Source: Ruania alba (GTDB lineage: Bacteria; Actinomycetota; Actinomycetes; Actinomycetales; Beutenbergiaceae). From it: a stretch of DNA of 64,000 bases. The position numbers and the translations under genes were made by a program. The notes beneath the pieces were generated by a model that had not been told where the DNA came from, ran no database searches, and saw only the letters and a list, made by a program, of their open reading frames with translations. The stretch lies in the NCBI RefSeq assembly GCF_900105765.1, contig NZ_FNTX01000001.1, positions 2,142,387-2,206,386 of the forward strand. Direction: 5' to 3'. Below are positions 35,412-59,012 of this stretch, one piece after another. Position 1 is the first letter of the stretch; the number at the start of each line of letters is the position of its first letter.

Positions 35412-35443
35412 TCGCCACACGTCCGCCGTCCATCGCTCGGCCC

Positions 35444-38999: not shown

Positions 39000-39026
39000 G
39001 ATGCCTCCCGTGTATCGGGCGATTCC

Positions 39027-39758: not shown

Positions 39759-39801
39759 TGCGACCCCTCTCGGTGATGACCATCTCTCGACCATCGTGCC
39801 C

Positions 39802-41635: not shown

Positions 41636-41652
41636 CGCCGCGCCACCTCCGA

Positions 41653-42927: not shown

Positions 42928-43616
42928 CGAGCGGCTCCGACGGTCAGGCCGAGCAGCTCGGGGACACCGGTCAGATCCGGCGTCTCGGCGTACTCGTAGA
43001 ACGGGGTGGACGGGTCGTACCCGCGGTTGACGTACACCTTGTGCGTGATCCGCTGCTCGTGACAGGGGATCACGTCGTACCACATGTGCGAGCTCACGTG
43101 CAGGATCTCGTCCCGCCCGCAGTCGAGCTGGTCGAGCATGTAGTCGAAGGCCTGATAGCGGGGCTTGTAGGCCTTCGCCTGCTCGGCGGTGAACACACGG
43201 TGGAAGTCCACGCCGAGCTGCTCGACGTTCCCGGCGAGCAGGTCGTCGTCGGCGTTGGACAGGATCACCAGCGGATACTCCGATGCGAGGGCCGCGAGAG
43301 CCTCGGGAACGTCGGGGTGCGGCCCCCAGGACGCGAGGGCCGCGGTGATCACCTCGACATCGGTGTGCCGGTACGGGATCCGCCACCTGTTGCACACCCG
43401 CTGCCACGAATGCCGCAGCACCTCCCGGTACGGCTGGTAGGCGCCGAGCACCTCGTCGATCCGGTAGGCGCGGAAGTCCTTCAGGAACACCCGCAGGTCC
43501 TCCGGCGCCACGCGATCGGTGACCAGTGGGGTGACCGCGTCGTTCATCTGGTAGTTGGTGAGCGTGCCGTAGCAGTCGAAGGTGATGTAGCGGGGGCGGA
43601 AGCCGGTCAGGTCCAT
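42924..43616 (-). CDS. HAD hydrolase of the haloacid dehalogenase type II family
   Basis: The 230-residue protein has the nucleophile Asp14 in TFDCYGT, LSNADDD (motif II), AYKPRYQAF with Lys (motif III) and VSSHMWYD in place of the SSNxWD motif seen in true L-2-haloacid dehalogenases. It keeps the family scaffold but changes the water-positioning Asn to His and shifts the last Asp by one. The substrate is therefore probably not a haloacid. A paralog with the same neighbour (a binding protein) is encoded at 52511-53176. It is translationally coupled to the flavin oxidase gene. Confidence 0.85.
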   Translation of the reverse strand: MDLTGFRPRYITFDCYGTLTNYQMNDAVTPLVTDRVAPEDLRVFLKDFRAYRIDEVLGAYQPYREVLRHSWQRVCNRWRIPYRHTDVEVITAALASWGPHPDVPEALAALASEYPLVILSNADDDLLAGNVEQLGVDFHRVFTAEQAKAYKPRYQAFDYMLDQLDCGRDEILHVSSHMWYDVIPCHEQRITHKVYVNRGYDPSTPFYEYAETPDLTGVPELLGLTVGAAR

Positions 43617-43647
43617 GGGTCTCTCTTTCGTCTCGTCGTCGGTGGTG

Positions 43648-45192
43648 TCAGTTCAGGCTGACGTCGGGGGTGATGGCGTACCGCACCAGCGGGTCGTCCC
43701 GGAATCCGGTGACGTCGTCACTGACGGCGGCCAGGGTCTGCTCGTGCACCATGAACACGGTCACCGCTTCCTCCTGCAGGAACTGGGCCACGTCGGCGTA
43801 GGCGGCCTGCCGCTCGGTCTCGTCCTCGTGCGACCCCGCCTCGGCGAGCATCGCGTCGAACTCCTCGTTGCAGTAATGGGAGATGTTGTACCCGCCGTCG
43901 CAGGTGTAGTCGGCGGTGAGGAAGCCACTCGGGTCGGCGATATCGACCAGGTGGTTGCGGGAGAGCAGCGTCATGTCGTAGTCGCCGGAGAGCAGGTCGG
44001 GCTCGATGGCGGCGTAGTCGGGAATGTTCACCTCCACCTCGATCCCGATCTCACCCAGGTTGGCTTGCACGACGGCGGCCAGGTCGCCGAACTCGGGGCG
44101 TTCGGTGTAACCGAGGAGAGTGAGGCTGAGGTCGCCCTCCTGGTAACCGGCCTCGGCGAGGAGGTCACGCGCCGCGTCCAGGTCCTGCTGCGCGGGCTCG
44201 ATCTCAGGTGCCCAGGCCTCGTTCGGGGCGAACGGCCCGATCGCGGGCTGCGCCGTCTCGTTGTAGACCGTGGCAGCGATCGCCGGGAGGTCGAGGGCGA
44301 GCTGCACCGCCTGACGCACGCGGACGTCGCTGAAGGGCTCGCGTGAGCTGTTCAGGTACAGGCCGGTGGTCCGCGGGGTGAACTCGCGCGTGACAGTGAG
44401 GCCCTCCGTCGCTTCGAGATCGGTCAGCGAGGTGGATGGGACGGCCATCGCGATGTCCGCCTCGCCGCCTCGCACCTGGGTGGCGCGCGTCGCTCCCTCG
44501 GGGACGAACAGCGCCTCGACCGAGTCCAGAGCGGCGGGAGTGCCCCAGTAGTCCTCGTTGCGTTCCAGCGTCAGGGACTGGCTCGGTTGGTAGTCGGTGA
44601 TGGCGAACGGGCCGGTGCACGTCCCGATCGGGTCGATACCGCTGTCCGCGTACGCCTCCGGGGCGAGAATGCCGGTGTTCACGCTGGCCATCCGGAAGGG
44701 CAGGAGTCTGCTCTCTTCCGGTGTCGTGACCTGGAGGGTCTGCTCGTCGACCGCTTCGATACCAGCGATGTGGGAAGGGCCAAAGGCTCGTGCCGGGGCC
44801 TCGACCTCGAGCTGGTGCTGCAAGGCGTCCGCGACTGCCTGAGCGGTCAGGGCGGTGCCGTTCTGGAAGATCACGCCCTCCTGCAGGGTGAACTCCCAGA
44901 CCGTGGGTTCGACCTTCTCCCATGCCGTGGCGAGTTGGGGCTCGAGCTCTCCGGTCTGGTCGTTGTACCGCAGCAGGGTCTCCATGCACCCGAGCTGGGT
45001 GAGGATGTTCGCGTCGTCGGTCTCGATGGCGAAGCCGCGCGTGGGCGTGAACTGCATGCTGATGACGAGCGACTGGTCGTCGGAGGAAGAGGGTCCGTCC
45101 TCGCCCGAATTGCCTCCGTCGAATCCACAGGCCGACAGGCCCAGGGCGAGTGTCGCGACCGTAGCCGCGACTCGTGCACCAGATCGCATCAT
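43648..45192 (-). CDS. Peptide/nickel-type ABC transporter substrate-binding lipoprotein (family 5)
   Basis: This 514-residue protein is the first gene of the operon. Its signal peptide ends in the lipobox LSAC with Cys22, followed by a Gly/Ser/Asp tether. The family 5 pattern includes ETLLRYND, LATAWEKVEPTVWEF, GVIFQNGTALTA and TGPFAITDYQPSQSLTLERNEDYWG. GAGG precedes the tandem ATG at 45192/45189. A close paralog is encoded at 53173-54729; both share the segment GFAIxxDDAxILTxxGC. A consensus promoter with an overlapping palindrome lies upstream. Confidence 0.9.
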   Translation of the reverse strand: MMRSGARVAATVATLALGLSACGFDGGNSGEDGPSSSDDQSLVISMQFTPTRGFAIETDDANILTQLGCMETLLRYNDQTGELEPQLATAWEKVEPTVWEFTLQEGVIFQNGTALTAQAVADALQHQLEVEAPARAFGPSHIAGIEAVDEQTLQVTTPEESRLLPFRMASVNTGILAPEAYADSGIDPIGTCTGPFAITDYQPSQSLTLERNEDYWGTPAALDSVEALFVPEGATRATQVRGGEADIAMAVPSTSLTDLEATEGLTVTREFTPRTTGLYLNSSREPFSDVRVRQAVQLALDLPAIAATVYNETAQPAIGPFAPNEAWAPEIEPAQQDLDAARDLLAEAGYQEGDLSLTLLGYTERPEFGDLAAVVQANLGEIGIEVEVNIPDYAAIEPDLLSGDYDMTLLSRNHLVDIADPSGFLTADYTCDGGYNISHYCNEEFDAMLAEAGSHEDETERQAAYADVAQFLQEEAVTVFMVHEQTLAAVSDDVTGFRDDPLVRYAITPDVSLN

Positions 45193-45244
45193 GACCACCT
45201 CTGCGTCGTGGGGAGCGACCGCCTTTGGCCGCCGGGTTTCTGGA

Positions 45245-45277
45245 ACGCTAGAGAAGCCTCACCTCATTGTCAACAGT
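45245..45277 (-). promoter_or_regulatory. Promoter and operator of the nine-gene transport and oxidation operon
   Basis: On the minus strand TTGACA (45273-45268), 17 bases, TAGCGT (45250-45245). The palindrome-like ATTGTCAACAGT (45266-45277) overlaps the -35 box, a repressor arrangement that suits the GntR/FCD protein encoded inside the operon. Confidence 0.65.
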
Positions 45278-45424
45278 CTCGTGGAAAGTTGCCCTCGGTC
45301 GACACCCCGTAGGTGTGACTGAGGGCACAGCGCGAGGCGCACTGTGGTGCGGATATGGCCTAATCACAGGGACCCAGCGGCACTGATCGATGCGCCACGC
45401 GGCCCTCCAAACGATCCAAGAATT

Positions 45425-45436
45425 ATTGTTAACAAT
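45425..45436. promoter_or_regulatory. Palindrome ATTGTTAACAAT before the His-rich exporter gene
   Basis: A perfect 12-bp palindrome of the same family as the sites at 45266, 54865 and 54888. It sits just upstream of a -35 box (45438) rather than over it. With 45193-45504 being more than 300 bases without a gene, this site and the two promoters are all that I recognise in that stretch. Confidence 0.5.
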
Positions 45437-45437
45437 C

Positions 45438-45466
45438 TTGACCGACGGTGCTGACGTGAGTAGTGT
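45438..45466 (+). promoter_or_regulatory. Promoter of the His-rich cation exporter gene
   Basis: TTGACC (45438-45443), 17 bases, TAGTGT (45461-45466), 39 bases before the start codon. Confidence 0.55.
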
Positions 45467-45504
45467 CCCGACCGTCACAACAGCCCAGTAGTGAGGACGC
45501 CACG

Positions 45505-46743
45505 ATGGCCCAGCACTCCCCGACCGACTCGTCGACAACCACCGAGCAACCGCACGGCGACCACGAGCACGGCCACGGCAAGCACAGCCACAGCGGGCAC
45601 GACCACAGCAACCATGGGCACGACCATGGCGATCACGATCACGGCGACCACGAGCACGGCGGGCACGGGCACAGCCATGGCGACCACGACCACGATCACG
45701 ACCACGGGCACGGCCTGTGGGGCAAGATCAAGCACATGGTCGTGCCGCACTCGCACGACTCGAACGAGGCGATCCAGTCAGCCGAGGAGTCCAGCAAGGA
45801 GGGCATCCGAGCCGCCTGGATCGGACTGGCCGGCATGGCGGCCACCGCCATCCTGCAGATCGTGATCGTGGCCATCTCCGGCTCGATCGCCCTGCTGGCC
45901 GACACTCTGCACAACGTGGGGCACGCCGTCACCACGATCCCCTTGGTGATCGCGTTCCGGATCGGCCAGCGCGCCGCCTCGAAGATGTACAGCTACGGCT
46001 ACCGGCGCGCCGAGGACATTGTCGGGCTGTTCATCTCCCTCATCATCGCGGTCTCTGCCGCGGTCATCATCTGGGAGTCGGTCGACGCGCTCGTCGAACC
46101 GCGCGAGCTGACGAACCTGTGGTGGGTCTTCGCCGCCGGCCTCGTCGGCGCTGCCGGCAACGAGATCGTCGCGATTTACCGGATCCGTACCGGCCGCCGG
46201 ATCGGCAGCGCAGCCCTGATCGCCGAGGGCCAGCACGCTCGTGCGGACGGCCTCACCTCCATCGCCGTGGTCATCGGCGTGATCGGGGTGTGGATGGGCT
46301 TCCCGCAGGCGGACGCCCTCATCGGCTTCGTCATCGCCGCGGCCATCCTGTGGATCCTCGTCCAGTCCGTGCGCACCACGATGCGGCGCCTGATGGACGG
46401 AGTCGAGCCCGGCACCATCGAGAAGATCACCGCTGTACTCGAGGCGGTTCCCGGCGTCGTCTCCGTGGACCGAGTGCGGGCACGCTGGTCCGGTCACCGG
46501 CTAGAGGCCGACGCCAACCTCGCCGTCGACTCCACCCTCAGCACGCTCGAGTCCCACGCGATCGCTGAGACTGCTGAGCACGACGTGATCCACAAGGTGG
46601 CTCACATCGAGAACGTCGTCGTTCACATCAACCCCGTCGTGGACGGCCAGCAGCCGGCACAGCTGCACGAACTCACCGCCCATCACGCCAACGCAGAGGC
46701 CCGCGCCGCCTACCGCGCGGCCAAGGGTCTGCCGGAACTGTAG
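45505..46743 (+). CDS. Cation diffusion facilitator with a long His-rich N-terminus
   Basis: The 412-residue exporter has an extended cytosolic N-terminus with about 27 His and many Asp and Gly between residues 15 and 75. Six helices follow, beginning near residue 105. Helix II shows DTLHNVGHA, an N/H-containing variant of the metal site, and helix V HARADGLTS. A C-terminal ferredoxin-like domain carries HKVAHIENVVVHINP. The His-rich stretch probably buffers zinc, cobalt or nickel. GAGGA precedes the ATG at 45505. It differs strongly from the exporter encoded at 31.7 kb and lacks the CsoR-type operator. Confidence 0.9.
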   Translation: MAQHSPTDSSTTTEQPHGDHEHGHGKHSHSGHDHSNHGHDHGDHDHGDHEHGGHGHSHGDHDHDHDHGHGLWGKIKHMVVPHSHDSNEAIQSAEESSKEGIRAAWIGLAGMAATAILQIVIVAISGSIALLADTLHNVGHAVTTIPLVIAFRIGQRAASKMYSYGYRRAEDIVGLFISLIIAVSAAVIIWESVDALVEPRELTNLWWVFAAGLVGAAGNEIVAIYRIRTGRRIGSAALIAEGQHARADGLTSIAVVIGVIGVWMGFPQADALIGFVIAAAILWILVQSVRTTMRRLMDGVEPGTIEKITAVLEAVPGVVSVDRVRARWSGHRLEADANLAVDSTLSTLESHAIAETAEHDVIHKVAHIENVVVHINPVVDGQQPAQLHELTAHHANAEARAAYRAAKGLPEL

Positions 46744-46759
46744 AGGAAGGGAGGAGACC

Positions 46760-47299
46760 ATGCCCGGTTTCACGATCCGCCCGCTCGCCCCGGCCGACGT
46801 GCCGGCAGCGCAGGCCGTGATGATGCGCTCCGTCGTCGAGGACTTCGGCGCCGAGCACGACGCCGTGATCCACGCCGACATCGATGATCTGCTCGGTACC
46901 TACGACCGTGCCGACGGCCCGTTCATGCTGGTGGTGGTGGACGAGGTCACCGATCAGATCGTCGCGACCGGCGGCATGCGGGACGGGCGACTCCGACCTG
47001 GCGTGACGCCGGAGGACCTCGTCGAGCGCTACGACGACGGCAGCACCGGTCAAGTGGTGCGCGTCTATACGCTGCGCGAGCACCGCCGTCGGGGCATCGC
47101 CAAGGCACTGGTGCGGAACGTCCTCGACAAGGCCGCGCGGGACGGGCACTACGAACGCATCGCGTTCCACACCCTGCTCAGCTCCCCCGGAGCCGTGGCG
47201 TTCTGGACCGCGATGGGCGCCGAGCTGGTGCATGACGACACCTACGGCCCTTCCGAAGCCATGTACTACGAGTTCCCGGCACTCGCTCGCATTCCTTGA
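46760..47299 (+). CDS. GNAT family N-acetyltransferase
   Basis: The 179-residue protein has the GNAT fold: FTIRPLAPADVPAAQAV at the start, then VVRVYTLREHRRRGIAKALVRNVL near residues 97-120, which holds the acetyl-CoA binding motif (RRRGIA), and SSPGAVAFWTAMGAEL. AGGGAGGAG precedes the ATG 16 bases after the exporter gene. The acceptor substrate is unknown; transferases of this size commonly act on amines or amino acids. Confidence 0.87.
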   Translation: MPGFTIRPLAPADVPAAQAVMMRSVVEDFGAEHDAVIHADIDDLLGTYDRADGPFMLVVVDEVTDQIVATGGMRDGRLRPGVTPEDLVERYDDGSTGQVVRVYTLREHRRRGIAKALVRNVLDKAARDGHYERIAFHTLLSSPGAVAFWTAMGAELVHDDTYGPSEAMYYEFPALARIP

Positions 47300-47336
47300 T
47301 CCTGCACCACCCACACCACATCGAAGGAGATTCACT

Positions 47337-47756
47337 GTGACCAAGCGCCGCGACCTGTTTATCTACGTCGCCGACCCGGACCGTCCGGAGGACGCCCGGG
47401 AGTACCTGAGCAACTGGCTGCGTGAGCTGGACGGTCATCCGGGCTATCTGGGCGGCTTTGTGCTGCGGGAGACCTCCGGCGAGCTGCTCCCGAACACCTA
47501 CGTGCTCGCACTGGAGTTCGAGTCCACGGAGGCCGCACGAGCCCTGTGGCCGAAAATCCAGGACACGGTGAACCCGCTCTACCCGGATGACAAGTCGGAC
47601 AAGCGCCCCGACCAGGCACCCGCGTTCTTCGACGACACGAAGGAGAAGATCGCCGGCGGCGAGGCGAACCCGCTGACTTTCAACCGCGGCTCAGGGCGGC
47701 TGGCCCGGATGCTGCACGTGCACGCCGAAGAGGTCGACGCGTTCGCGACCGCATGA
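47337..47756 (+). CDS. Small protein with a possible dimeric alpha/beta-barrel fold
   Basis: The 139-residue product starts at GTG 47337, preceded by GAAGGAG. RRDLFIYVADPDRPEDARE, LRELDGHPGYLGGFVLRE and TYVLALEFESTEAARALWP suggest a beta-alpha-beta pattern like antibiotic-biosynthesis-monooxygenase (ABM) domains. No catalytic residues can be named. It is placed between the acetyltransferase and an aldehyde dehydrogenase gene and may be part of the same catabolic set. Confidence 0.6.
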   Translation: MTKRRDLFIYVADPDRPEDAREYLSNWLRELDGHPGYLGGFVLRETSGELLPNTYVLALEFESTEAARALWPKIQDTVNPLYPDDKSDKRPDQAPAFFDDTKEKIAGGEANPLTFNRGSGRLARMLHVHAEEVDAFATA

Positions 47757-47826
47757 GCCCCAGGTGCCCCGGCCCACGCGGCCGGGGCACCGCTGTTAGC
47801 AGGCCCCCCGGAACGGAGCAGGTGAG

Positions 47827-49332
47827 ATGACTCAGACGATCGACCAGGTACAGGGCACCACTGATCCGGCAGCGGCACGGCGCGACCATGCCCTGACCCT
47901 CGCTGCCGAGCTCCGCTCCGGCTATCTGGCCGGCAGCTGGCGAGAGGCGGCCAGCACTTTCGACGTCACCGACCCCGCCACTGGTGCGGTCGTCGCGTCG
48001 GTGGCCGACTGTGACGTGGCAGACGGCCTCGCGGCACTCTCCGCCGCCGACGCCGCTGCCGAGGAGTGGCGAGCGAGCACCCCGGCCGAGCGTGCCGCCC
48101 TGCTGCACCGCGTCGACACCGCGATGCGCGCCGACCAGGAGAACCTCGCTCACCTGATCACCCTGGAGACCGGCAAGACGCTCACCGAGGCACGCGGAGA
48201 GGTGATCTACGCAGCCGACTACGTGCGCTGGTACGCCGAGGAGGCCGTGCGCGTGCACGGCCGCTCCAGCACCGCCCCCACAGGGGACTTCCAGATCGTC
48301 ACCGTCGCCGAGCCGGTCGGACCCTGCCTGCTGATCACCCCGTGGAATGTCCCGTTGGCGATGGTGACCCGCAAGCTGGCCCCGGCGATCGCGGCCGGGT
48401 GCACCGCCGTGGTGAAGCCTGCCGAGCTGACTCCGCTGGTGACCCTCGCCTTCGCGCGGATCGTGGAGGACGCCGGGGCCCCGCAGGGGGTGGTCTCGGT
48501 GATCACCACCACCCGCGCCGACGAGGTGTGCGCCGCGCTGCTCGCCGATGAACGGCTCCGCAAGGTGTCCTTCACCGGGTCGACGGCGGTGGGTCGCCTG
48601 CTCCTGGAACGCTCCGGTCAGCGGGTGCTCCGTACCTCGATGGAGCTCGGCGGGAACGCTCCATTCGTGGTCTTCGACGATGCCGACCTCGACCTTGCGG
48701 TCGAGCAGGCGATGATCGCGAAGATGCGGATGGGTGGGCAGTCCTGCGTGGGCGCGAACCGGTTCCTCGTACAGGAGGGCATCGCCGACGCCTTCGCGGC
48801 CCGGCTCGGTGAGCGAATGGCGGCCACCCGCGTGGGCTCCGGGTTCGACGAGGACGTCGACCTCGGCCCGCTGATCGACGAGCGGGCGGTGGCAAAGGCA
48901 CAGCGGCTCACCGACGACGCCCTGGAGCGCGGCGCCCGCGAGGTGGCCCGCGCCGAGGCCCCGGAGGGCTCCTGCTACCTGGCCCCGGTGGTGCTGGACC
49001 AGGTGCCCGCCGACGCGGCGATCATCTCCGAGGAGGTGTTCGCACCCGTCGCGGCGATCAGCACATTCAGCACCGAGGCCGAGGCGCTGGCCCGGGCGAA
49101 CGACACCGAGCACGGGTTGGCCGGCTTCGTCATCACTGCGAGCCTGGACCGCGCCCGCCGGATGGCCGGCCGGATGCGCAGTGGCATGGTCGGGATCAAC
49201 CGCGGCCTGGTCTCCTCGGTGGCGGCACCGTTCGGCGGGACCAAGCAGTCCGGTCTCGGCCGGGAGGGCGGGCCGGAAGGCATCGCGGAGTACCTCGACA
49301 TGAAGTACGTGGCGGTACCCGCGTTCGGGTAG
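47827..49332 (+). CDS. Succinate-semialdehyde-type aldehyde dehydrogenase
   Basis: The 501-residue enzyme resembles GabD-like dehydrogenases. ITPWNVPLAMVTRKLAPA, VVKPAELTPL and FTGSTAVGR line the cofactor site, MELGGNAPFVVF carries the base, and Cys307 in GGQSCVGANR is the nucleophile. The C-terminal APFGGTKQSGLGREGG is typical. It likely oxidises a semialdehyde. AGCAGGTGAG precedes the ATG. It converges with the 2-hydroxyacid dehydrogenase gene of the neighbouring minus-strand operon. Confidence 0.9.
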   Translation: MTQTIDQVQGTTDPAAARRDHALTLAAELRSGYLAGSWREAASTFDVTDPATGAVVASVADCDVADGLAALSAADAAAEEWRASTPAERAALLHRVDTAMRADQENLAHLITLETGKTLTEARGEVIYAADYVRWYAEEAVRVHGRSSTAPTGDFQIVTVAEPVGPCLLITPWNVPLAMVTRKLAPAIAAGCTAVVKPAELTPLVTLAFARIVEDAGAPQGVVSVITTTRADEVCAALLADERLRKVSFTGSTAVGRLLLERSGQRVLRTSMELGGNAPFVVFDDADLDLAVEQAMIAKMRMGGQSCVGANRFLVQEGIADAFAARLGERMAATRVGSGFDEDVDLGPLIDERAVAKAQRLTDDALERGAREVARAEAPEGSCYLAPVVLDQVPADAAIISEEVFAPVAAISTFSTEAEALARANDTEHGLAGFVITASLDRARRMAGRMRSGMVGINRGLVSSVAAPFGGTKQSGLGREGGPEGIAEYLDMKYVAVPAFG

Positions 49333-49349
49333 CTGGCGGACCGGGCTCC

Positions 49350-50297
49350 TCAGTAGCCGAGAGCCCGGTCCACCAAACCCTCCGGCCGCTCCCCCGCCTG
49401 GATCCGGCGGATGTTGGCGATGACCGCATCGGCGGCCGTCTCCGCCTGCGTGGCACCGGCCACGTGCGGGGTGAGCACCACCCGCGGGTGATGCCACAGC
49501 GGGTCATCGGCGGGAAGCGGCTCCGGGTCTGTCACGTCCAGCACCGCACCGGCCAGGTGCCCGCTGTCGAGCGCTTCCAGCAGCGCCGCCTGGTCCAAGT
49601 GACCACCACGACCCACGTGCACCAGCCCGGCGCCACGGGGCAGCGCAGCGAACAGGTCCGCGTCCAAGATCTTCGCGGTCGACTCCACCAGCGGGAGCAG
49701 GCAGATCAGGATGTCGGTCTCGGCGAGGAAGCCGGGCAGGGCTGCCTCCCCATGCAGGCAGCGCACGCCGTCGACCTGCTTGGCCGACCGGCTCCAGCCG
49801 GCCAGCTCGAACCCGAACGGCGCGAGTGAGGCGAGCACCGCCTGCCCGAGCATGCCGAGACCGAGCACGCCCACCCGGCGTCCGCGGGCGGGCCGCACCG
49901 GGTGGTTGTTCCACTGTCCGGCACGCTGCTGCTCCAGGTACCGAGGCAGTTCCCGGTGCAGCATCAGCACCGCCATCGTGGCGTACTCCTGCATGGTGGC
50001 CACCAGCCCGGGCTCGATCATGCGCACCACCGCGACGTGCGGCGGCACCGCGTCCAGGTCGAGCTGGTCCACCCCCGCACCGATGCTGAACAGCACCTCC
50101 AGACCGGTGTAGCGATCCAGGTCCGGTGGCGCGTCCCAGGTCAGCAGGTAGCGCACCTGAGTAGGGTCCACCGCATCGGGGGCGGTGATGCACGGCACGT
50201 CCGGAAGGTCTCGGGCGAAGCGGTCGCTGAAGATCTGGGCACGTGCGGTGATGCTTCGTGCATTCGTGGGGTCGGCCGTGCGCAGGACGAACGTCAT
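49350..50297 (-). CDS. D-2-hydroxyacid dehydrogenase (GhrA-like)
   Basis: The 315-residue protein has NAD site VGVLGLGMLGQAVL near residue 142, HVGRGGHLD (Arg), DVTDPEPLPADDPLW (Glu) and TPHVAGAT (His). This fits the glyoxylate/hydroxypyruvate reductase branch. The ATG at 50297 is seven bases after the stop of the sarcosine-oxidase-like gene. A keto acid or glyoxylate produced by that oxidase would be a fitting substrate. Confidence 0.88.
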   Translation of the reverse strand: MTFVLRTADPTNARSITARAQIFSDRFARDLPDVPCITAPDAVDPTQVRYLLTWDAPPDLDRYTGLEVLFSIGAGVDQLDLDAVPPHVAVVRMIEPGLVATMQEYATMAVLMLHRELPRYLEQQRAGQWNNHPVRPARGRRVGVLGLGMLGQAVLASLAPFGFELAGWSRSAKQVDGVRCLHGEAALPGFLAETDILICLLPLVESTAKILDADLFAALPRGAGLVHVGRGGHLDQAALLEALDSGHLAGAVLDVTDPEPLPADDPLWHHPRVVLTPHVAGATQAETAADAVIANIRRIQAGERPEGLVDRALGY

Positions 50298-50304
50298 CGC
50301 ACCA

Positions 50305-51447
50305 TCATCGCGCCCCGACGAACCTGTCCGGAGCGAATCGCGCGATGTCCCTGGAGGTGCCGCCGTCCAATGCCAGGTCGGCGAGGATGTCCCCGATCGT
50401 GGGGGCGAACTTGAAGCCCGAACCGGAGAACCCACACGCCGTGATCACGCTCGGCTGATCAGGCGCCGTGCCGATGATCCACCGCTTGTCCGGGGTGTAC
50501 CCCTCCTGGTGCGCGCTGAGCGTGACGGGCTCGGGGTGCAGCCCCGGGAAGAAGGTCGTGACGATCTCCCGCAGCTGGGCGACCATCGTGGTGGTGATCT
50601 CGCGGTCCAGGTTGTCCGGGTCCGCCACCGGCGGGTGTTCGCGGCCGAGGTAGGCACCGATCTTGACGGTGGCCTGGTCCAGGGTCGGGAACCCGTAGGC
50701 ACGCACGTCCCCGACCCGCTCGAACACCGGGAACACCTCGCGCTGGTAGGCCGACACGTCGCGTGGGAGGTACCAGGACTGCACCACACGGCGCGGCTGG
50801 ACCACCTCGGCGGCCTCCGGCAGCACTCGGCGCGCCCACGCCCCTGGGGCGACGATCGCGTGGTCGAACTCGTGAGTTCCGGCGTGCGTCCGTACCTGCA
50901 CTCCCCCGCCGTGCCGCTCACTGACCTCCAGCACGGGGGTGTACTCGTGCACGATGGCGCCGCGCGCGCGGGCCGCACCGATCGCCGTCATCACGGACAG
51001 CTCGGGGCGTACGTAGCCGGTGACGGTATCCCGCACGGCCTCCTCGCCGTCGCGGAACCCATGCTGCGGGTACTGGTGGCGCAGTTCTTTGGTGCCCAGG
51101 TCCTCGCGGTCGAGGCCGTGGGCGGTCAAGCTCTCCCGCGCCTGCTCGAGCGCCGGGGTGCCGGGCCTACCGATCACCAGCCCACCGGTGAGCGTGAGCA
51201 GGTCTCGTCCGGAGGTCGATTCCAGGCCTCGCCAGAGCTCGAGCGCGTCCAGGGCGAGCGGAGTGTTCTGCACCTCGCTCTGGCTCAGCGCGGAGAAGCG
51301 CCGGGTCTGTCCGCCCGCAGCGCCGCGTGGGTGGGCGATTCCGTACTGCTCGAACCCCTCCACGTGGGCGCCCCTCGCAGCGAGGCGCCACAGTGCCATA
51401 CTGCCCATCGTGCCGAGGCCGATGACGGCGATCCTCGCGTTCATCAC
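50305..51447 (-). CDS. Sarcosine oxidase/N-methyltryptophan oxidase-like flavoenzyme
   Basis: The 380-residue enzyme follows the monomeric sarcosine oxidase plan: FAD site IAVIGLGTMGSMALWRLA, then FEQYGIAHPRGAAGGQTRRF, and a C-terminal GFSGSGFKFAPTIGD. In characterised members a Cys in the CxYTxTxD segment links covalently to FAD. Here the matching region reads AHQEGYTPDKRW, with His instead of Cys. The flavin may be non-covalent. It should oxidise an N-methyl or other secondary amine. The start overlaps the dehydrogenase gene (ATGA). Confidence 0.87.
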   Translation of the reverse strand: MMNARIAVIGLGTMGSMALWRLAARGAHVEGFEQYGIAHPRGAAGGQTRRFSALSQSEVQNTPLALDALELWRGLESTSGRDLLTLTGGLVIGRPGTPALEQARESLTAHGLDREDLGTKELRHQYPQHGFRDGEEAVRDTVTGYVRPELSVMTAIGAARARGAIVHEYTPVLEVSERHGGGVQVRTHAGTHEFDHAIVAPGAWARRVLPEAAEVVQPRRVVQSWYLPRDVSAYQREVFPVFERVGDVRAYGFPTLDQATVKIGAYLGREHPPVADPDNLDREITTTMVAQLREIVTTFFPGLHPEPVTLSAHQEGYTPDKRWIIGTAPDQPSVITACGFSGSGFKFAPTIGDILADLALDGGTSRDIARFAPDRFVGAR

Positions 51448-52514
51448 GCCACCGCCGATTCGACGTGGGGTGCTGTGGAGCGCAGATGGTCGACGAGTGC
51501 GTCCGCCACGGTCTCAGTGTCGGCCAGGCCGCCCACGTCGGGTGTGCGGGTGGCCGGGTCGGCCAGGGTGGTGGTGATGGCAGCCATGATCCGGTTCGTC
51601 TCCTTCTCCTTGCCGAGGTGCTTGAGCATCATCGCGGCCGACCACACCATCCCCACCGGGTTGGCGAGGCCCTGGCCAGCGATGTCCGGTGCGGATCCGT
51701 GCACCGGTTCGAACATGGACGGGTGGGTCCGGGTGGGGTCGATGTTCGCCGACGGTGCGATGCCGATGCTGCCGCACACCCCACCTACGAGGTCGCTGAG
51801 GATGTCACCGAAGAGGTTGCTACCGAGGACCACGTCGTAGTCAGCCGGGCGCATCACCAGGTGCGCGGCGAGTGCGTCGATCAGTTCGAAGTGCACCTCG
51901 ATCGGATACTCCTGAGCCACCTCACGGACCACCTCGTCCCAGAACGGCATGGAGTGGATGATCCCGTTGGACTTGGTGGCGACCGTGAGCGTCCCGCCGC
52001 GCTCGGCGGCGTGCCGGGCGGCGACGTGGGCGATCCGCTCGATCCCGGCGCGGGTGAAGATCGCGGTCTGCAGGGCCGTCTCGGCGGCGCCGCTGCCGTG
52101 CCGTCCACCCAGGGTGGAGTACTCCCCCTCGGTGTTCTCCCGGACCACCACGATGTCGACACCCTCGGCGAGATCTGCCCGCACCGGGGTGGGAACGCCG
52201 TCGAAGGTACGCATCGGGCGCAGGTTCACGTACTGATCGAAGGCCCGCCGGATCGGGATCAGCAGGCCCCACAGGGAGATGTGGTCGGGCACCCCCGGCC
52301 ATCCGACGGCCCCGAGCAGCACGGCCTCGTGCTCGGCGAGCAGGTCCATGCCGTCCGCAGGCATCATCGACCCCTCCCGGGCGTATCGCTCGCAGGACCA
52401 GTCCAGCTCGGTCCACTGCAGGTCCGTGACACCCGCGGCATCCAGCACACGACGGGCGACCGCCATCACCTCCGGGCCGATCCCGTCCCCGGCGATCTGC
52501 GCGATGCGGGTCAT
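51444..52514 (-). CDS. Isopropylmalate/tartrate dehydrogenase family enzyme
   Basis: The 356-residue beta-decarboxylating dehydrogenase has AGDGIGPEVMAVARRVLDAAG at the start, NLRPMRTFDG, VVRENTEGEYSTLGGR (substrate loop), Lys in ATKSNGI, metal Asp residues in YDVVLGSNLFGDILSDL, and the NAD loop EPVHGSAPDIAGQGLANPVG. The TEGEYS loop fits tartrate or D-malate dehydrogenases better than leucine synthesis enzymes. It overlaps the HAD gene by four bases. Confidence 0.88.
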   Translation of the reverse strand: MTRIAQIAGDGIGPEVMAVARRVLDAAGVTDLQWTELDWSCERYAREGSMMPADGMDLLAEHEAVLLGAVGWPGVPDHISLWGLLIPIRRAFDQYVNLRPMRTFDGVPTPVRADLAEGVDIVVVRENTEGEYSTLGGRHGSGAAETALQTAIFTRAGIERIAHVAARHAAERGGTLTVATKSNGIIHSMPFWDEVVREVAQEYPIEVHFELIDALAAHLVMRPADYDVVLGSNLFGDILSDLVGGVCGSIGIAPSANIDPTRTHPSMFEPVHGSAPDIAGQGLANPVGMVWSAAMMLKHLGKEKETNRIMAAITTTLADPATRTPDVGGLADTETVADALVDHLRSTAPHVESAVA

Positions 52515-53176
52515 CCCTCCAGCACCTCCGCGAGCTCGGTCAGGCTCGATACCTCGTACCGGTGGTAGTACGGGGCGCTCGGCTCGTAGCCGCGGTTCAG
52601 GTAGACGGTCTGGGTGATGCCCAGGTCGGTGGCCGGCTGCAGGTCGTAGCGCGGGCTGGCCGAGACGTGCACCACCTCCGACGGAGCACAGTCCAGCTCC
52701 GTGAGCATGTGCTCGAACGCCTGGAGCCGTGGTTTGTACGCGCGGGCCTGCTCCGCGGTGATGACCGCGTGGAAGGGAGCGCCGAGCTGGCCCACGTTGC
52801 CGCTGATCTGTTCATCAGCGGCGTTCGTGAGGATGACCAGCCGGTACTGCTCGGCGAGTGTGACCAGCCCGTCCGGCACGTCCGGATGCGGTCCCCAGGT
52901 CGGCACCTGTTCGTAGATCTGGTCGGCGTCGGTGTCGGTGGCCTCGACCCCGACCCGACGCGCCGCCCGGACAAGGGCACGGGTGATGATCTCCCGGTAC
53001 GGCCGCCAGTCCCCCATCACCTCGTCCCCGCGGTACACGCTGAACCACTCGAGAAACTCTTCCATCTGCTCTCCGGGCACGCGGCCGGCGAAGATCTCGC
53101 GCGTTGCGGCGGACATCCCGAACGCCGTCAGGGTCCCGTAGCAGTCAAAGGTGAGGTAGCGAGGTCGGGTGCTCAT
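52511..53176 (-). CDS. HAD hydrolase of the haloacid dehalogenase type II family (paralog)
   Basis: The 221-residue protein is a paralog of the one encoded at 42924: Asp11 in TFDCYGT, LTNAADE, AYKPRLQAFEHML and VSASPRYDLQ. The SSNxWD dehalogenase motif is again replaced, this time by SASPRYD. It follows the binding-protein gene with a four-base overlap, the same gene pair as in the first operon. Confidence 0.85.
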   Translation of the reverse strand: MSTRPRYLTFDCYGTLTAFGMSAATREIFAGRVPGEQMEEFLEWFSVYRGDEVMGDWRPYREIITRALVRAARRVGVEATDTDADQIYEQVPTWGPHPDVPDGLVTLAEQYRLVILTNAADEQISGNVGQLGAPFHAVITAEQARAYKPRLQAFEHMLTELDCAPSEVVHVSASPRYDLQPATDLGITQTVYLNRGYEPSAPYYHRYEVSSLTELAEVLEG

Positions 53177-54729
53177 GGTGCCTCCATCGTCAGGTCCGTC
53201 GTGATCACGCGCTGGCCGAGGGGATCGTCGACATACCCGGCGATGTCAGCCGAGACGCCGTAGGTGTTGTACTCGTGCACGAGGAACGCAGTCACGGCGC
53301 GTTCTTGCAACATCGAGGCCATCTCCGCATAGAGCCCGTAGCGGGTGTCATCGTCAGACGTGGCCAGCGCTTCTTGAAGCACGGCCTCGACGTCCGGGTC
53401 ACAGTGGTTGGAGAGGTTGTACCCTCCGTCGCAACCGTAGTCCGAGCTGAGGAAGCCGCCCGGGTCGGGCACATCGGTCAGCGTGCTGCGGGAGAGCAGG
53501 GTGGCGTCGTAATTGCCGTCGAGCAGGTCCTGCTCGACGGACGCGTAGGCTCCGGACCGGATCGTCACGGTGATCCCGATCTCGGCCAGCTGGGCCTGGA
53601 TTACTTGGGAGAGATCGGCGAAGGCGACCTGGTCGGTGTAGGCGATCAGCTCGAAGTCGATCGAGGCCGGGTCGATGCCGGCGCCGGAGAGCATGGCCAC
53701 GGCCGCATCCGGGTCGGACTCGACCGGTGCGGCGGCCTCCGGTGCCCACGGCGCGGACGAAGCGAACGGACCCACCGCGGGGGCAGCGAACCCCTCGTAC
53801 ACGGCATCGACGATCTCGTCGAGGTCGAGGGCCGTCCTGATGGCATCGCGCACCACCTCCTCGTCGAACGGTTCCTGGTCCAGGTTGAACAGCATGCCGG
53901 TGGTGCGGGGCAGCTCGAACGGCTCCGCGACGATGCTCTCGTCGCCCTCGAGCTGGGTCATTGCCACTGCCGGCAGGTTCGCGGAGATATCGGTCTCCCC
54001 GGTGCGCAGCTGCGTGACGCGTGCCTCACCGTCGCTGATGTGCTGGACCTCCACCCCATCCAGCCCTGGTGTCCCACCCCAGTAGTCGTCGTAGGCCTCC
54101 AACGAGATGGACACACCCGAGGCGATGTCGGTGATCTCGAACGGCCCGGTGCACGTGCCGACCGGGTCCACCTGCTCACCCCCGTACGCGGACGGTGCCA
54201 GTATCCCGGTGGTCGGGCTTGTCACTCGAAGCGGGAGAAGCGGGTCCGGCTCCGGGGTCGAGATCCGCACTGTCGCCTCGTCCGCCGCCTCGATGCCGGC
54301 GATCGTCTCGTGGTTGAACGACCTGGGCGGTGTGTCACTGTCGATCACATCCTGGAGCGCAGTCACCACAGCTTCAGCCGTCACGGCGCTGCCGTCCTGG
54401 AAGCTGGCCTCGCGCACCGTGAACTCCCAGGTGGTCGGTTCGCTCTGGACCCACTCGGTTGCGATCTCCGGCACCACCTCACCGTCCGGGGTGTACCGCA
54501 AGAGGGTCTCCAGACAGCCGATCCTGGTCAGGATGAACGCATCGTCACTGCCGATCGCGAAACCGGAGCTCGGCGAGAACGCCTCCACGTAGCCGATCGT
54601 CGCTCTCTCGGCGTCGCCTTCACCGCCGGTCTCGCCGTCGGTGTCGGTCGAACCTCCGGAGAAACCGCACCCGGTGAGCCCGAGGGCACCCACCAGCGCA
54701 CCGCCGATCCACCATCGATGTTGCACCAT
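53173..54729 (-). CDS. Peptide/nickel-type substrate-binding lipoprotein (family 5, paralog)
   Basis: The 518-residue protein has a signal peptide ending in LTGC with Cys21 and an acidic Gly-rich tether. It aligns throughout with the binding protein encoded at 43648, for example GFAIGSDDAFILTRIGC, LLRYT and TGPFEITDIASG. GGAGG precedes the ATG at 54729; longer frames lack such a site. No permease or ATPase genes follow, so it probably feeds the transporter encoded at 37-41.6 kb with a second ligand. Confidence 0.9.
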   Translation of the reverse strand: MVQHRWWIGGALVGALGLTGCGFSGGSTDTDGETGGEGDAERATIGYVEAFSPSSGFAIGSDDAFILTRIGCLETLLRYTPDGEVVPEIATEWVQSEPTTWEFTVREASFQDGSAVTAEAVVTALQDVIDSDTPPRSFNHETIAGIEAADEATVRISTPEPDPLLPLRVTSPTTGILAPSAYGGEQVDPVGTCTGPFEITDIASGVSISLEAYDDYWGGTPGLDGVEVQHISDGEARVTQLRTGETDISANLPAVAMTQLEGDESIVAEPFELPRTTGMLFNLDQEPFDEEVVRDAIRTALDLDEIVDAVYEGFAAPAVGPFASSAPWAPEAAAPVESDPDAAVAMLSGAGIDPASIDFELIAYTDQVAFADLSQVIQAQLAEIGITVTIRSGAYASVEQDLLDGNYDATLLSRSTLTDVPDPGGFLSSDYGCDGGYNLSNHCDPDVEAVLQEALATSDDDTRYGLYAEMASMLQERAVTAFLVHEYNTYGVSADIAGYVDDPLGQRVITTDLTMEAP

Positions 54730-54846
54730 GCCCAGCCTCCGCCCGTCATGTCGGCACGCGCCGCGCACGCACCCGGATGTGCCCATCGTCGATTGTCGAC
54801 GATATTCCAACGCGACTCTGCGTCACGCAGTTTCACTGCAATTGCA

Positions 54847-54876
54847 ACGGTAGCGAGAGAGAAGATTGTTGACAAG
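54847..54876 (-). promoter_or_regulatory. Promoter and operator of the second binding-protein operon
   Basis: On the minus strand TTGTCA (54875-54870), 17 bases, TACCGT (54852-54847). The palindrome ATTGTTGACAAG (54865-54876) covers the -35 box, as at 45245-45277. Confidence 0.6.
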
Positions 54877-54887
54877 AGTTCGCCGAA

Positions 54888-54899
54888 ATTGTTGACAAT
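54888..54899. promoter_or_regulatory. Second ATTGTTGACAAT operator
   Basis: A near-perfect palindrome, 12 bases from the previous one, on the side of the divergent NTF2-like gene. On the plus strand its TTGACA (54892-54897) could be a -35 box with TACGAT (54917-54922) after 19 bases. Confidence 0.6.
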
Positions 54900-54965
54900 T
54901 GCCCTCACGGGATGGCTACGATCGTCGGCACACCGCCAAGGTTCGACACTCGGGAGGGCACGAGG

Positions 54966-55367
54966 ATGGTCAGCACATCCGATCCGATAGAGCGACCTCA
55001 GGTTGAGGACTCCTTCTTCGCGCGCTATCAACGCGCCTGGAGCGAGTGCGATATCGAGGGCATCGTGTCCATGATGACTCCGGACGGTGTGTACGAGGCA
55101 TCGTTCGGCCCGGAGCCATGGGGTGTTCGACATGTCGGGCGGGAGACGATCCGCGCCGCACTGGAAGAGATGTGGCGTGACCCGAGCCGGCGATCGAGGC
55201 ACATCTATGGGGATCGGTTCCTGCTCGGCGACCGCGGTTTCTCCGAATGGACTTCCGAACGCACCGAACCCGACGGCACGACGGCCGTGGTGCACGGCGC
55301 GGACTTCTACCGGTTCACTGACGGGCTCGTCGCGGAGAAGATTGCCTACCGCAAGGTCGTCGGATGA
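54966..55367 (+). CDS. NTF2/SnoaL-like protein
   Basis: The 133-residue protein has the cone-like NTF2 fold pattern: FFARYQRAWSECDIEGIVSMMTPDGVYEASFG, then RETIRAALEEMW, FLLGDRGFSEWTSERTEPDG and HGADFYRFTDGLVAEKIAYRK. Members range from isomerases to binding proteins, so no reaction is assigned. GGGAGGG lies before the ATG. Its stop overlaps the flavin oxidase gene (ATGA), and it is divergent from the second binding-protein operon across the shared operators. Confidence 0.82.
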   Translation: MVSTSDPIERPQVEDSFFARYQRAWSECDIEGIVSMMTPDGVYEASFGPEPWGVRHVGRETIRAALEEMWRDPSRRSRHIYGDRFLLGDRGFSEWTSERTEPDGTTAVVHGADFYRFTDGLVAEKIAYRKVVG

Positions 55368-56473
55368 GCGCCCGGGTGGCCGTCGTCGGGGGCGGTATCC
55401 TCGGTGCGGCCACAGCCGCTGAACTCGCGCGGCGCGGTGCCACGGTGACGCTGCTGACCGAGCGCGGACTGTGCAGCGAGGCCTCGGGCCGGACCCTCTC
55501 CTGGCTGAACTCCTTCGGTCGCATCGCACCCGACTATCACCGGTTGCGCCTGCTCGGCATCGACAGGTACCGGCGACGGGCAGCGGATCCGGCGACCCGG
55601 GAGGCCATCACTTTCGCGGGCGGTCTCGCCTGGCGTCCACCGGACCAGCACGACGGCCTGATCGCGGCCTACGAGCACATGCTCGATGCCGAGTACCCGG
55701 CCGAATGGTTCGACCACGCGGACGTCGCTGCACGTGTTCCGGGCGTCGATCCGACGTCGGTCCCGGACACCGGCGCGGTCTACAACCCGACCGAGGGGTG
55801 GGTCCACGTGCCGGACCTGGTCGAGACGCTCGCTGGCGAAATGGAGCGAGCCGGGGGCGAGATCCGGACCGAGGTCGGTCCGGCGGCGATCGCTCACGAC
55901 GGGGACCACGTCACCGGGGTGCGCCTGGCGGACGGATCCACCATCGAGGTGGATGCGGCGGTGCTGGCCACGGGTGCGCGCGTGCCGTCGATGCTCGCCG
56001 AGGCCGGTGTCAGGATCCCGGACGCCACCAGTGTCGCCGCCCTGGTTCGCACCGAGCCGGTCGAGACCGAGCTTGCTGCCGTGCTGAACACGGCACGGGT
56101 GGCGCTGCGCCCGGCGCCGGACGGTTCGCTGGTGATGGACTCGGCCGCGGGGAACGCCGCCGCCGTCGCCCACCCTGACGGGAGCTTCACCGTCCCCGAC
56201 GATGCCGTCACCACACTCCTCGCCGACGCTACGCGCGTCCTCGCGGGGAACCCGGAGTTGCGCGTGCGCTCCCACGGCGTCGGCCTCAAGCCCATCCCGG
56301 GCGATGAGCGCCCCGTCGTCGGTGAGCTCGACGACGTGCGCGGGTACCACGTCGCCTTCACGCACAGCGGTGCGACGCTGGGACTCATCCTCGGCGAACT
56401 ACTCGCCGAGGAGATCCTGGCCGGCACTCGACGCGACGAGCTGGAGCCGTTCCGACCGCACCGGTTCGCCTGA
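55364..56473 (+). CDS. FAD-dependent oxidoreductase (DAO family)
   Basis: The 369-residue flavoenzyme has VAVVGGGILGAATAAELARRGATV as its FAD site and ends with a DAO-type block (GLKPIPGDERPVVGELDDVRG, then FTHSGATLGLILGELLAEEIL). LCSEASGRTLSWLN follows the first Rossmann motif. This is the third DAO-type oxidase in the region. It probably oxidises an amine or amino acid related to the imported compound. Confidence 0.87.
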   Translation: MSARVAVVGGGILGAATAAELARRGATVTLLTERGLCSEASGRTLSWLNSFGRIAPDYHRLRLLGIDRYRRRAADPATREAITFAGGLAWRPPDQHDGLIAAYEHMLDAEYPAEWFDHADVAARVPGVDPTSVPDTGAVYNPTEGWVHVPDLVETLAGEMERAGGEIRTEVGPAAIAHDGDHVTGVRLADGSTIEVDAAVLATGARVPSMLAEAGVRIPDATSVAALVRTEPVETELAAVLNTARVALRPAPDGSLVMDSAAGNAAAVAHPDGSFTVPDDAVTTLLADATRVLAGNPELRVRSHGVGLKPIPGDERPVVGELDDVRGYHVAFTHSGATLGLILGELLAEEILAGTRRDELEPFRPHRFA

Positions 56474-56521
56474 CCCGCCGCTACGCTGACCTCGGACCGG
56501 CGGTACCGCCGGAGGAGTGTG

Positions 56522-57898
56522 GTGGGGAACAACGGGAGGGTGTGCGTGCGTCAGCTCATTCGACAACTTCCGCCGTTGCGGTGGCGTGACGAACGGATCC
56601 GTGAGCTCCGGGCGACGAACCGGACGCAGAAGGCGAGGCTGGAAGCGTTGTCGGCGGAACTCGCCGAGTGGCGCGCCCGCGCGGAGGAAGAGCCTCGTCG
56701 CGACGGCGTGGGTGCACCGCGGACCGGACCGAAAGGGCTCCCGGAGGCCGCGGGCGGCCCGTCCTTCCAGTACATGCTCGAGTCGGAGCGCCGCATCGCC
56801 GTGGTGCGGCGCAAGGACGGGCCGGCGCCGCTACGGATCTCCCTGGCCGGGAAGCTGTACTCGCAGTCGATCGCCCGTGCCGCCGGGGTCCGGGTTCCCG
56901 CGATCTATGGCATCTGGAACTCCATCGAGGAGATCGATCTGGCCGCGCTGCCGGAGGAGTTCGTGCTCAAGTCCGACCGCGGGTCGAACTCCAAGGGCGT
57001 CTTCCCGATTGTACGCGCCGGGGACCGGTACCAGATCGCCGGCATCGCTGAGCCCGTGACGGCCGAGCAGGTGCTCGACAGGCTCCGGGAGGCCAAGGAG
57101 GCCCGCCGCGCACCAGCGCCCTATTTCGCGGAACAGTACTTGCACGGACGCGAGGACGGCGAGGTCCCGCCCGACATCAAGGTCTACGCCTTCTACGGCG
57201 AGATCGGGCACGTGCACCTGCGCGCCGTGGGCCGCCACGCGGACAACTCCTCGGTCGTGTCCAAGTTCGTCGACGCCGACGGGACTGACCTGGGAGCCAT
57301 CGACCCCTCCCGGACGATCGACCCGACTTTGGCACTTCCCGAGGCTTTCGAGGAGGTCGTGCAGGCCGCCCGCACGCTCTCCAAGGCGGCCAAGGTGCCA
57401 TTCATCCGGGTGGACCTCTACGAGACGGCGGACGGGATCTGCTTCGGCGAGTACACCACCCGGCCAGGTGGCACACAGTGGTACGGCGTCGAGCACGACC
57501 GCGTGCTCGGCAAGCGCTGGGAACGGGCGCAGTCCCGCCTGGACGCCGATCGCACCGCCGGGATGCCGCTCGAGCCGGACACGCTCGAGCCGGAGGACCT
57601 GCCCTCGAGCCGTCGCCCGTCGACCGATCGCATTGCCCGGCGCGTGCACGTCGCCGGGCACGTCCAGGGTGTCGGGTACCGGATGCACTGCTCCCGGACC
57701 GCCGAACGGCTGGGCGTGGCCGGGTGGGTGCGCAACCTTCCCGACGGCGCAGTACAGGCGTGGGTGGAAGGCGCACCGGACGCCGTCGGGAGCCTGCTCG
57801 ACTGGCTGGCCACCGGGCCACGAAACGCCGAGGTGACCGGCACCCAGATCACCGAGGAGGACCCGCAGGGTCTCTCCTCGTTCGAGATCCGTCGCTGA
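56522..57898 (+). CDS. TupA-like ATP-grasp protein fused to an acylphosphatase domain
   Basis: The product (about 458 residues) has a basic N-terminus with LPPLRWRDERIREL, a coiled coil (about 20-50) and an ATP-grasp domain (about 75-365). EEFVLKSDRGSNSKGVFP is the nucleotide strand; PPDIKVYAFYGEIGH and FIRVDLYETADGICFGEYTTRPGG hold the metal residues. After a Pro/Ser linker, residues 375-458 form an acylphosphatase: RRVHVAGHVQGVGYRMHCSRTA contains the phosphate-binding GHVQGVGYR loop, and GWVRNLPDGAVQAWVEG holds the catalytic Asn. It is a clear paralog of the protein encoded at 30385, which lacks this domain. GGAGGA lies five bases before GTG 56522. Acceptor and product are unknown. Confidence 0.82.
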   Translation: MGNNGRVCVRQLIRQLPPLRWRDERIRELRATNRTQKARLEALSAELAEWRARAEEEPRRDGVGAPRTGPKGLPEAAGGPSFQYMLESERRIAVVRRKDGPAPLRISLAGKLYSQSIARAAGVRVPAIYGIWNSIEEIDLAALPEEFVLKSDRGSNSKGVFPIVRAGDRYQIAGIAEPVTAEQVLDRLREAKEARRAPAPYFAEQYLHGREDGEVPPDIKVYAFYGEIGHVHLRAVGRHADNSSVVSKFVDADGTDLGAIDPSRTIDPTLALPEAFEEVVQAARTLSKAAKVPFIRVDLYETADGICFGEYTTRPGGTQWYGVEHDRVLGKRWERAQSRLDADRTAGMPLEPDTLEPEDLPSSRRPSTDRIARRVHVAGHVQGVGYRMHCSRTAERLGVAGWVRNLPDGAVQAWVEGAPDAVGSLLDWLATGPRNAEVTGTQITEEDPQGLSSFEIRR

Positions 57899-57920: not shown

Positions 57921-59012
57921 TCAGGATCCGGTCGATCTCCGGGTGACCAGCTCCGGCGGCACCAGCGTGACCTCACGTGACCTGGGCTCAGCACCGTTCA
58001 CCCGGTGCAGCAGCCGGTCGACCGCGGCGCGACCGACCTCTCCAGCAGGCAGCCGCACCGTCGACAACGGCGGCTCCAAGAACTCCGCGAACGGGTAGTC
58101 CCCGAACCCGACCACCAGCGTGTCCTCCGGGCATCGCAGACCCCGTTCGCGGAGGGCGCGGTAGAGCCCCAAGGCGAAGTAGTCGTTGCCCACGACACAC
58201 CCGTCCGGCCGGTGGCCACGCGCGAGCAGGTCGACGGTCACGCGATAGGCGTCCCCGGCCTGCCACGGGAGAGCAGCGCGATCACTGCGCCGAGTCGGCA
58301 CCATGAGCACCTGGCGTTCGTCGAGCGGGAGCGAGGCGTCCTCGAGAGCATCCCGGAACCCCTGGATGCGTTGATCGATCGTGGTGATGGGCAGGTCTTC
58401 CTCGAGCATCACGATCGACCGCGCCCCTTGCGCGATCACATGGGAGGTCGCCGCATACGCACCCGCATGGTTGTCGGTGGCCACGGTATCGACGTCGAGA
58501 TCGTCCAGGCGCCGATTGACCACGACGAGCGGGATCCCTGCACGCTCGACCGCCTGCCAGGGGTTCGTCTCCCCCTGCACCGGGACCACGATGACGCCGT
58601 CCAGCCCGGACCGGATCACATTCTCGGCGGCAGCCTGTTCCCGGGCGGTCGACTCCTCGCTGAGGAACAGGACGATGTGATAGCCCTCGTCGGCCGCGCG
58701 TTGCTCGATCGCGCTGATGAGCTCGGCGTAGAACGGGTTCGAGACGTTCGTGATGACCAGACCGATGGTGCGCGGGCCACCGAGGACGAGCGAGCGAGCA
58801 TGCACGTTGGGCACATAGCCGAGCTGCTCGGCGGCACGTCGGATCGTCTCGCGCGATTCTGCGCTCACGCCGGACTCGCCGCGGAGCGCCCGCGAGACCG
58901 TGTTGACCGATACTCCGACGGCGTCGGCCACGTCTCGTAGGGTGCGCCGCCTGCGCGGCGCACCCGTTCTGATCTCGTCATCGTCCACTGAGCACGTCCG
59001 ATTCAGTATCAC
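57921..59012 (-). CDS. LacI-family transcriptional repressor
   Basis: The 363-residue protein has HTH LRDVADAVGVSVNTVSRALRG at about residue 24, hinge VPNVHARSLVLGG and a sugar-binding-type sensor (IGLVITNVSNPFYAEL, GCVVGNDYFALGLYRALRE, VVGFGDYPFAEFLEPPLSTVRLP). The GTG start at 59012 has no strong ribosome site. It is the third gene of a minus-strand unit after two unrecognised genes. Palindromes with a central CG at 60394 and 60482 are its likely operators. Confidence 0.9.
   Translation of the reverse strand: MILNRTCSVDDDEIRTGAPRRRRTLRDVADAVGVSVNTVSRALRGESGVSAESRETIRRAAEQLGYVPNVHARSLVLGGPRTIGLVITNVSNPFYAELISAIEQRAADEGYHIVLFLSEESTAREQAAAENVIRSGLDGVIVVPVQGETNPWQAVERAGIPLVVVNRRLDDLDVDTVATDNHAGAYAATSHVIAQGARSIVMLEEDLPITTIDQRIQGFRDALEDASLPLDERQVLMVPTRRSDRAALPWQAGDAYRVTVDLLARGHRPDGCVVGNDYFALGLYRALRERGLRCPEDTLVVGFGDYPFAEFLEPPLSTVRLPAGEVGRAAVDRLLHRVNGAEPRSREVTLVPPELVTRRSTGS

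Follow-up and report, generated by a model that had tools for sequence, protein, structure and literature searches.

In the window, the whole 64,000-nucleotide stretch of the Ruania alba genome analyzed here, one open frame (56522..57898, +) codes for both a TupA-like ATP-grasp domain and, downstream of it, a complete acylphosphatase domain. The frame has two candidate starts, GTG at 56519 or GTG at 56522, and a stop at 57898. Since a GGAGGA sequence ends at 56516, five bases ahead of 56522, the second GTG, which was also the start given in the original prediction, is preferred and yields a protein of 458 aa; a perfect 16-base palindrome (56497-56512) lies just upstream of this ribosome-binding site. 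In a Pfam search, ATPgrasp_TupA (PF14305) was matched at residues 124-332 with 76.0 bits (E = 4.3e-21; curated cut-off, 25 bits) and Acylphosphatase (PF00708) at residues 375-457 with 77.4 bits (E = 1.1e-21; curated cut-off, 22.5 bits), the latter over model positions 2-85 of 85; these residues are numbered on a 459-aa version of the protein, whereas all other residue numbers count from 56522. The predicted joining of an ATP-grasp ligase to an acylphosphatase is hence confirmed as one intact frame with both domains above cut-off. Furthermore, G+C at the third codon position stays at 0.80-0.94 across the junction in nine 150-base blocks of the frame, as expected of one coding frame. The gene can be divided into a segment encoding N-terminal helices (residues 4-15 and 19-56) and a variable stretch (56522..56737, +), with AlphaFold2 block pLDDT of 82-96 over residues 11-50 and below 50 over residues 61-72; an ATP-grasp region (residues 81-345; 56762..57556, +), delimited by PF14305, invariant positions and the AlphaFold2 model; a linker or junction (approximately residues 346-372; 57557..57637, +), within which DNA similarity to free acylphosphatase genes (acyP) starts at 57626; and the acylphosphatase domain (57620..57895, +), identified through Pfam, alignment and a separate model.

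Both halves of the protein retain the residues that are invariant in their families, according to alignments of 18 TupA-like and 16 acylphosphatase proteins, and both active sites look intact. In the ATP-grasp half, K111, K150, E204, D218, K220, R296, D298 and E310 are among the positions invariant in all 18 sequences, and pLDDT in the full-length AlphaFold2 model reaches at least 90 in 20 of the 27 ten-residue blocks spanning residues 81-350. A Foldseek search against the PDB supports the ATP-grasp fold: the best matches include Ddl, RimK, PsnB and LysX, as well as the inositol kinase PPIP5K2 (E ~1e-6), though at modest TM-scores (0.27-0.35 by query, up to 0.51 by target). In the acylphosphatase half, Arg387 and Asn405, which we take to be the catalytic Arg and Asn of acylphosphatase, are invariant in all 16 aligned proteins; an inactive loop, named beforehand as a result that would speak against the original prediction, is hence not what the conserved loop Arg387 suggests. 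This half matches PDB 2w4d with E = 4e-18, and residues 353-458, modeled separately, have a mean pLDDT of 92.5. The full-length model has low confidence from about residue 351 on, where the underlying alignment had zero depth; the linker between the domains is probably flexible, and their relative placement was not interpreted, given the lack of alignment depth over the acylphosphatase. The fused acylphosphatase does not look like a decaying sequence either: compared with the acyP of the congener G006 it has a dN of 0.27 and a dS of 0.93 (NG86, rough estimates with dS partly saturated), and this dN falls inside the 0.12-0.50 range of 15 free-gene pairs, which argues that the acylphosphatase is being maintained.

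The architecture itself was encountered once. No second protein spanning both domains was listed among the genomes sampled from the genus (8), family (24), order (396), class (394) and phylum (396). Because these five samples overlap, each including the window's own genome, and scoring was limited to four candidates for each genome at the order, class and phylum levels (E limits of 1e-25, 1e-40 and 1e-20, respectively), the rarity of the architecture holds for these samples only. A conserved TupA-like plus acylphosphatase architecture, which the original prediction proposed to look for, is not borne out in the genus-to-phylum samples. The alignments of sequences from G364 (to residue 386) and G197 (to residue 392) pass a stop and extend slightly into the acylphosphatase half of the query, and the 18-19 kb searched around each of the two yielded no acylphosphatase ORF (ORFs of at least 60 aa, E up to 1e-6). 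Acylphosphatase matches in G022 and G013 begin at query residues 334 and 338, and the G013 match contains a stop. A scan of genome contigs with short exact peptide patterns, which reaches only close relatives, matched 85 stretches, none of which was confirmed, and matches in plasmid (116) and phage (5) records included no place covering 80% of the query. An acylphosphatase-like stretch is present in NC_073886.1 (positions 21-329; 36% over query residues 360-457, E = 1e-7), a record labeled as an ssRNA phage, where it is odd enough that the record is possibly a chimeric assembly. In the literature on acylphosphatase, TupA, ATP-grasp, gene fusion and islands, the architecture was not found in titles or abstract openings.

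The fused domain is the sole PF00708 match in the whole genome, and six of the seven congeners (G002-G007) carry acylphosphatase as a separate gene. In the remaining one, G001, a search with the fusion protein gave only a TupA gene and a weak match in a 931-aa frame, and a free acylphosphatase was not found. The free gene has a recurrent neighborhood. In the window, tRNA-Glu (30009-30082) and tRNA-Gln (30138-30210), together with their upstream region (30009..30355, -), correspond to the sequence that adjoins acyP in four congeners, where the distance from the acyP start to the 5' end of tRNA-Gln is 165 (G004), 164 (G006), 217 (G002) or 352 bp (G007). The distance grows to 2979 bp in G005 and 2806 bp in G003, and to 27,416 bp (27.4 kb) in the window. 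The 2.8-3.0 kb of other sequence lying between tRNA-Gln and acyP in G005 (L056 5692-8671) and G003 (L058 8831-11637) suggests that this spot may accept insertions repeatedly. Five of the six congener acyP upstream regions, all save that of G002, show by eye a CATSATGG....ATGG start motif, which is absent at both junctions of the window and matched once in the whole window, with a mismatch, at 18604 (0.56 matches expected by chance). The TupA gene of G001 (L010 1375-2484) sits beside the same tRNA-Glu/Gln pair, directly next to a gene for a class I (Glu/Gln) tRNA synthetase.

When the window was compared by blastn with six congener regions, a 27.3-kb stretch (30356..57625) was found to be absent between tRNA-Gln and acyP of G004, G006 and G002. 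In G004, similarity to the window jumps from 30355 to 57626, with window 29974-30355 matching L053 8225-8605 (91%) and 57626-64000 matching L053 8627-14998 (94.7%). In G006, 29974-30344 corresponds to 8226-8597 (94%) and 57626-57899 to 8627-8900 (70%). For G002 and G006 the match is limited to the tRNA side and acyP itself, the right flank being different, so that G004 is the only congener matching the window on both sides. The first half of the window's acyP shares 67% nucleotide identity with that of G004 (L053 8621-8896) and the second half 93%, a split that raised the suspicion of recombination inside the fused acyP. The G004 gene is 86% identical to that of G006 in its first half and 69% in its second, which makes G004 the likelier recombinant; its acyP may combine a 5' half like that of G006 with a 3' half and an adjoining block like those of the window. 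G004 is, for this reason, a weaker witness for a clean insertion, and the probability that we assign to gene capture, the explanation developed below, was lowered accordingly from 0.72 to 0.68. The block in question begins with the convergent neighbor of the fusion gene, a LacI-type regulator named by eye (57921..59012, -), which adjoins acyP also in G004. The LacI block (window 57921-64000) lies beside acyP only in G004; in G003, G005 and G007 it is found elsewhere on the chromosome (77-82% identity), and G001, G002 and G006 give only short matches to it. Its location elsewhere in G003, G005 and G007 indicates that both sides of acyP have been rearranged in the window. The case for a clean 27.3-kb insertion hence comes mainly from G004, but the contrast between the relatives, in which acylphosphatase has its own gene, and this genome, in which it ends a TupA gene, stands whatever the order of events.

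The 27.3-kb stretch looks catabolic rather than glycan-related in its gene content. Among its 20 scanned ORFs are two CDF transporters, an M20 peptidase, a pyridine-nucleotide-disulphide-type oxidoreductase and two aldehyde dehydrogenases; a GntR regulator with an oligopeptide-type ABC transporter and two SBP_bac_5 binding proteins; and three DAO-family oxidases, an isocitrate-dehydrogenase-type enzyme and a 2-hydroxyacid dehydrogenase. The best congener DNA matches of these genes are scattered. In G003, CDF and M20 genes lie about 27 kb from the LacI block, a spacing much like that of the window, but by blastn and tblastn the intervening genes are different ones, bar ABC-transporter paralogs, and a simple translocation of a congener block was hence rejected. 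A mobile element as carrier was likewise not seen: no integrase or transposase occurs among the 20 ORFs, and no 8-mer, direct or inverted, is shared between 30300-30400 and 57540-57680 (~0.45 expected by chance per orientation). At the right end of the stretch, a gene for a SnoaL-like protein (54912..55367, +) overlaps by four bases the gene for an FAD-dependent DAO-family oxidoreductase (55364..56473, +), which ends 48 bases ahead of the fusion start. Given this overlap and spacing, the three genes may form one operon.

Several lines of evidence bear on the origin of the TupA half. The partner of the fused TupA in a 30-row tree (29 rows different) is a protein of G364, from another family of the same order (support 99/96), and the second TupA-like gene of the window (30385..31536, -; 44.5 bits to PF14305), located at the tRNA end of the 27.3-kb stretch, pairs with the G001 gene found at the same tRNA pair (100/100). 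An earlier 23-row tree agrees (95/92 and 100/100, respectively), both trees having long branches and comprising fetched sequences only. The placement of the two window TupAs on different branches rules out the inverted duplication of a single TupA gene. The suggestion of an outside origin for the fused TupA comes from the tree, as raw identity does not separate the candidates (39% over 340 columns for G364, 44% over 245 columns for a same-genome paralog). The G364 protein has a short tail like that of the fusion and ends in a stop, after which no acylphosphatase follows, nor was one found in the 19 kb around the gene (ORFs of at least 60 aa, E up to 1e-6). Several genus paralogs, on the other hand, have a further tail ending in C..WC. 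The 30385 gene had been put forward as the fusion without its extra domain and as a natural comparison for it. It is indeed TupA-like, but it is only about 35% identical to the fused TupA, groups elsewhere in the tree and carries the C..WC tail, which the fused protein does not have. With a G364 relative that has no acylphosphatase and an acyP that is free in six of the seven congeners, the 30385 gene makes a poor control, and more suitable comparisons are offered by the G364 protein and by the free acylphosphatases of G004 and G006.

We know of no role assigned to TupA-like proteins in the bacterial group to which the fusion belongs. The broader statement that the function of such proteins is not settled can be relaxed somewhat, since Cj1438 of Campylobacter jejuni is reported to have a TupA-like ATP-grasp domain that joins amines to the C6 carboxylate of glucuronic acid in the capsule (PMC11800379), the one case known to us of amide ligation on a sugar acid by such a domain. 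The fusion resembles the C-terminal domain of Cj1438 in its PF14305 match and in keeping the family-invariant positions, but differs from it in partner, which is an N-terminal glycosyltransferase in Cj1438 (PMC11800379) and a C-terminal acylphosphatase here. Unlike Cj1438 with its capsule role, the fusion gene lies among catabolic-type genes and outside the glycan-type cluster of its own genome (L059 and L060; G000 contig 2, 2240-2280 kb), which encodes four TupA-like genes, a UDP-glucose-dehydrogenase family protein, glycosyltransferase-type proteins, an ABC-2 membrane protein, an acyltransferase-SGNH protein and a CDP-glycerol glycerophosphotransferase domain. The acylphosphatase half resembles the free-standing enzyme (PF00708, PDB 2w4d) in being a whole domain with the loop Arg and Asn and a confidently predicted fold, but it lacks the usual start of its own and forms the tail of a larger protein. 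HypF provides a precedent for an acylphosphatase domain inside a larger enzyme (PMC6022934; PDB 4g9i). In HypF, however, this domain is N-terminal and accompanied by zinc-finger-like, YrdC-like and Kae1-like partners, none of which is matched by Pfam in the fusion protein at E up to 1.

The reading that we favor, with a probability of roughly 0.68, is that a TupA ligase gene captured a housekeeping acylphosphatase in this lineage specifically. A rearrangement, most simply the insertion of 30356-57625, would have placed a TupA gene of outside origin before acyP, and loss of the TupA stop and of the acyP start would have fused the two frames into a nearly complete TupA joined to a nearly complete acylphosphatase. 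In this capture model, the ATP-grasp part probably uses an acyl phosphate to form an amide or peptide bond, and the C-terminal part would supply the ordinary acylphosphatase activity of the cell, most likely carrying on the job of the free gene. The two domains are probably both active and uncoupled, and most likely work independently of one another across the linker. Since the fused copy is the only one in the genome, acylphosphatase is a separate gene in six of seven congeners and the architecture occurs once, a purposeful proofreading fusion is unsupported, and the join looks less like an enzyme built for proofreading than like an isolated by-product of genome rearrangement.

One point against capture is that the fusion, having been kept intact, could have been selected for coupling. 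In the coupled scheme, the acylphosphatase domain would hydrolyze the wrong or stranded acyl phosphates of the ATP-grasp domain, yielding a proofreading enzyme or an ATP-driven hydrolase. Intermediates of ATP-grasp enzymes are normally held in the active site, which weighs against such an arrangement, as do its single occurrence in the genome samples, the status of the domain as the genome's only acylphosphatase, normally a separate gene, and the absence of an acylphosphatase ORF within 19 kb of the gene for the nearest TupA relative in the tree (G364). These observations make coupling rather improbable, even though the family-invariant residues are kept in both domains, the frame is intact with its acylphosphatase under constraint, and ATP-grasp ligases mostly pass through acyl phosphates (PMC6022934). 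What endures of the original interpretation is therefore a real fusion with two active sites that look intact, proofreading or discharge having no support beyond the matching chemistry. A more specific version, a self-editing amidoligase in which an acylphosphatase recruited by accident from a displaced housekeeping gene discharges wrong-acid acyl phosphates from the TupA-like domain, is best regarded as a long shot; if the domains did cooperate, they would represent an unusual editing mechanism in ATP-grasp chemistry.

The locus might instead produce two proteins, with the acylphosphatase made also, or mainly, from an internal start and the fusion being incidental. In-frame ATG 57563 and GTG 57644 do precede the domain, and weakly led starts are common in high-G+C bacteria, but no Shine-Dalgarno sequence is seen by eye before either codon, the congener acyP start motif is absent there, and 54700-58100 contains no sigma-70-type site, which is weak evidence at such G+C. 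An internal start is unlikely on these grounds, and separate expression of the two domains, the other outcome named as counting against the original prediction, has no Shine-Dalgarno-led acylphosphatase start visible by eye in its favor. That an assembly or sequencing error joined two genes is scarcely credible for an assembly of 2 contigs with completeness 100 and contamination 0.54, in which codon-position composition is continuous across the junction and the frame has no stop.

Under the capture model, the fusion gene is a natural case in which the origin of a multidomain enzyme can be read, since free-standing relatives of each half can be compared with it. The gene likewise counsels caution in drawing 'Rosetta stone' inferences of a functional link from a fusion that has been found once.
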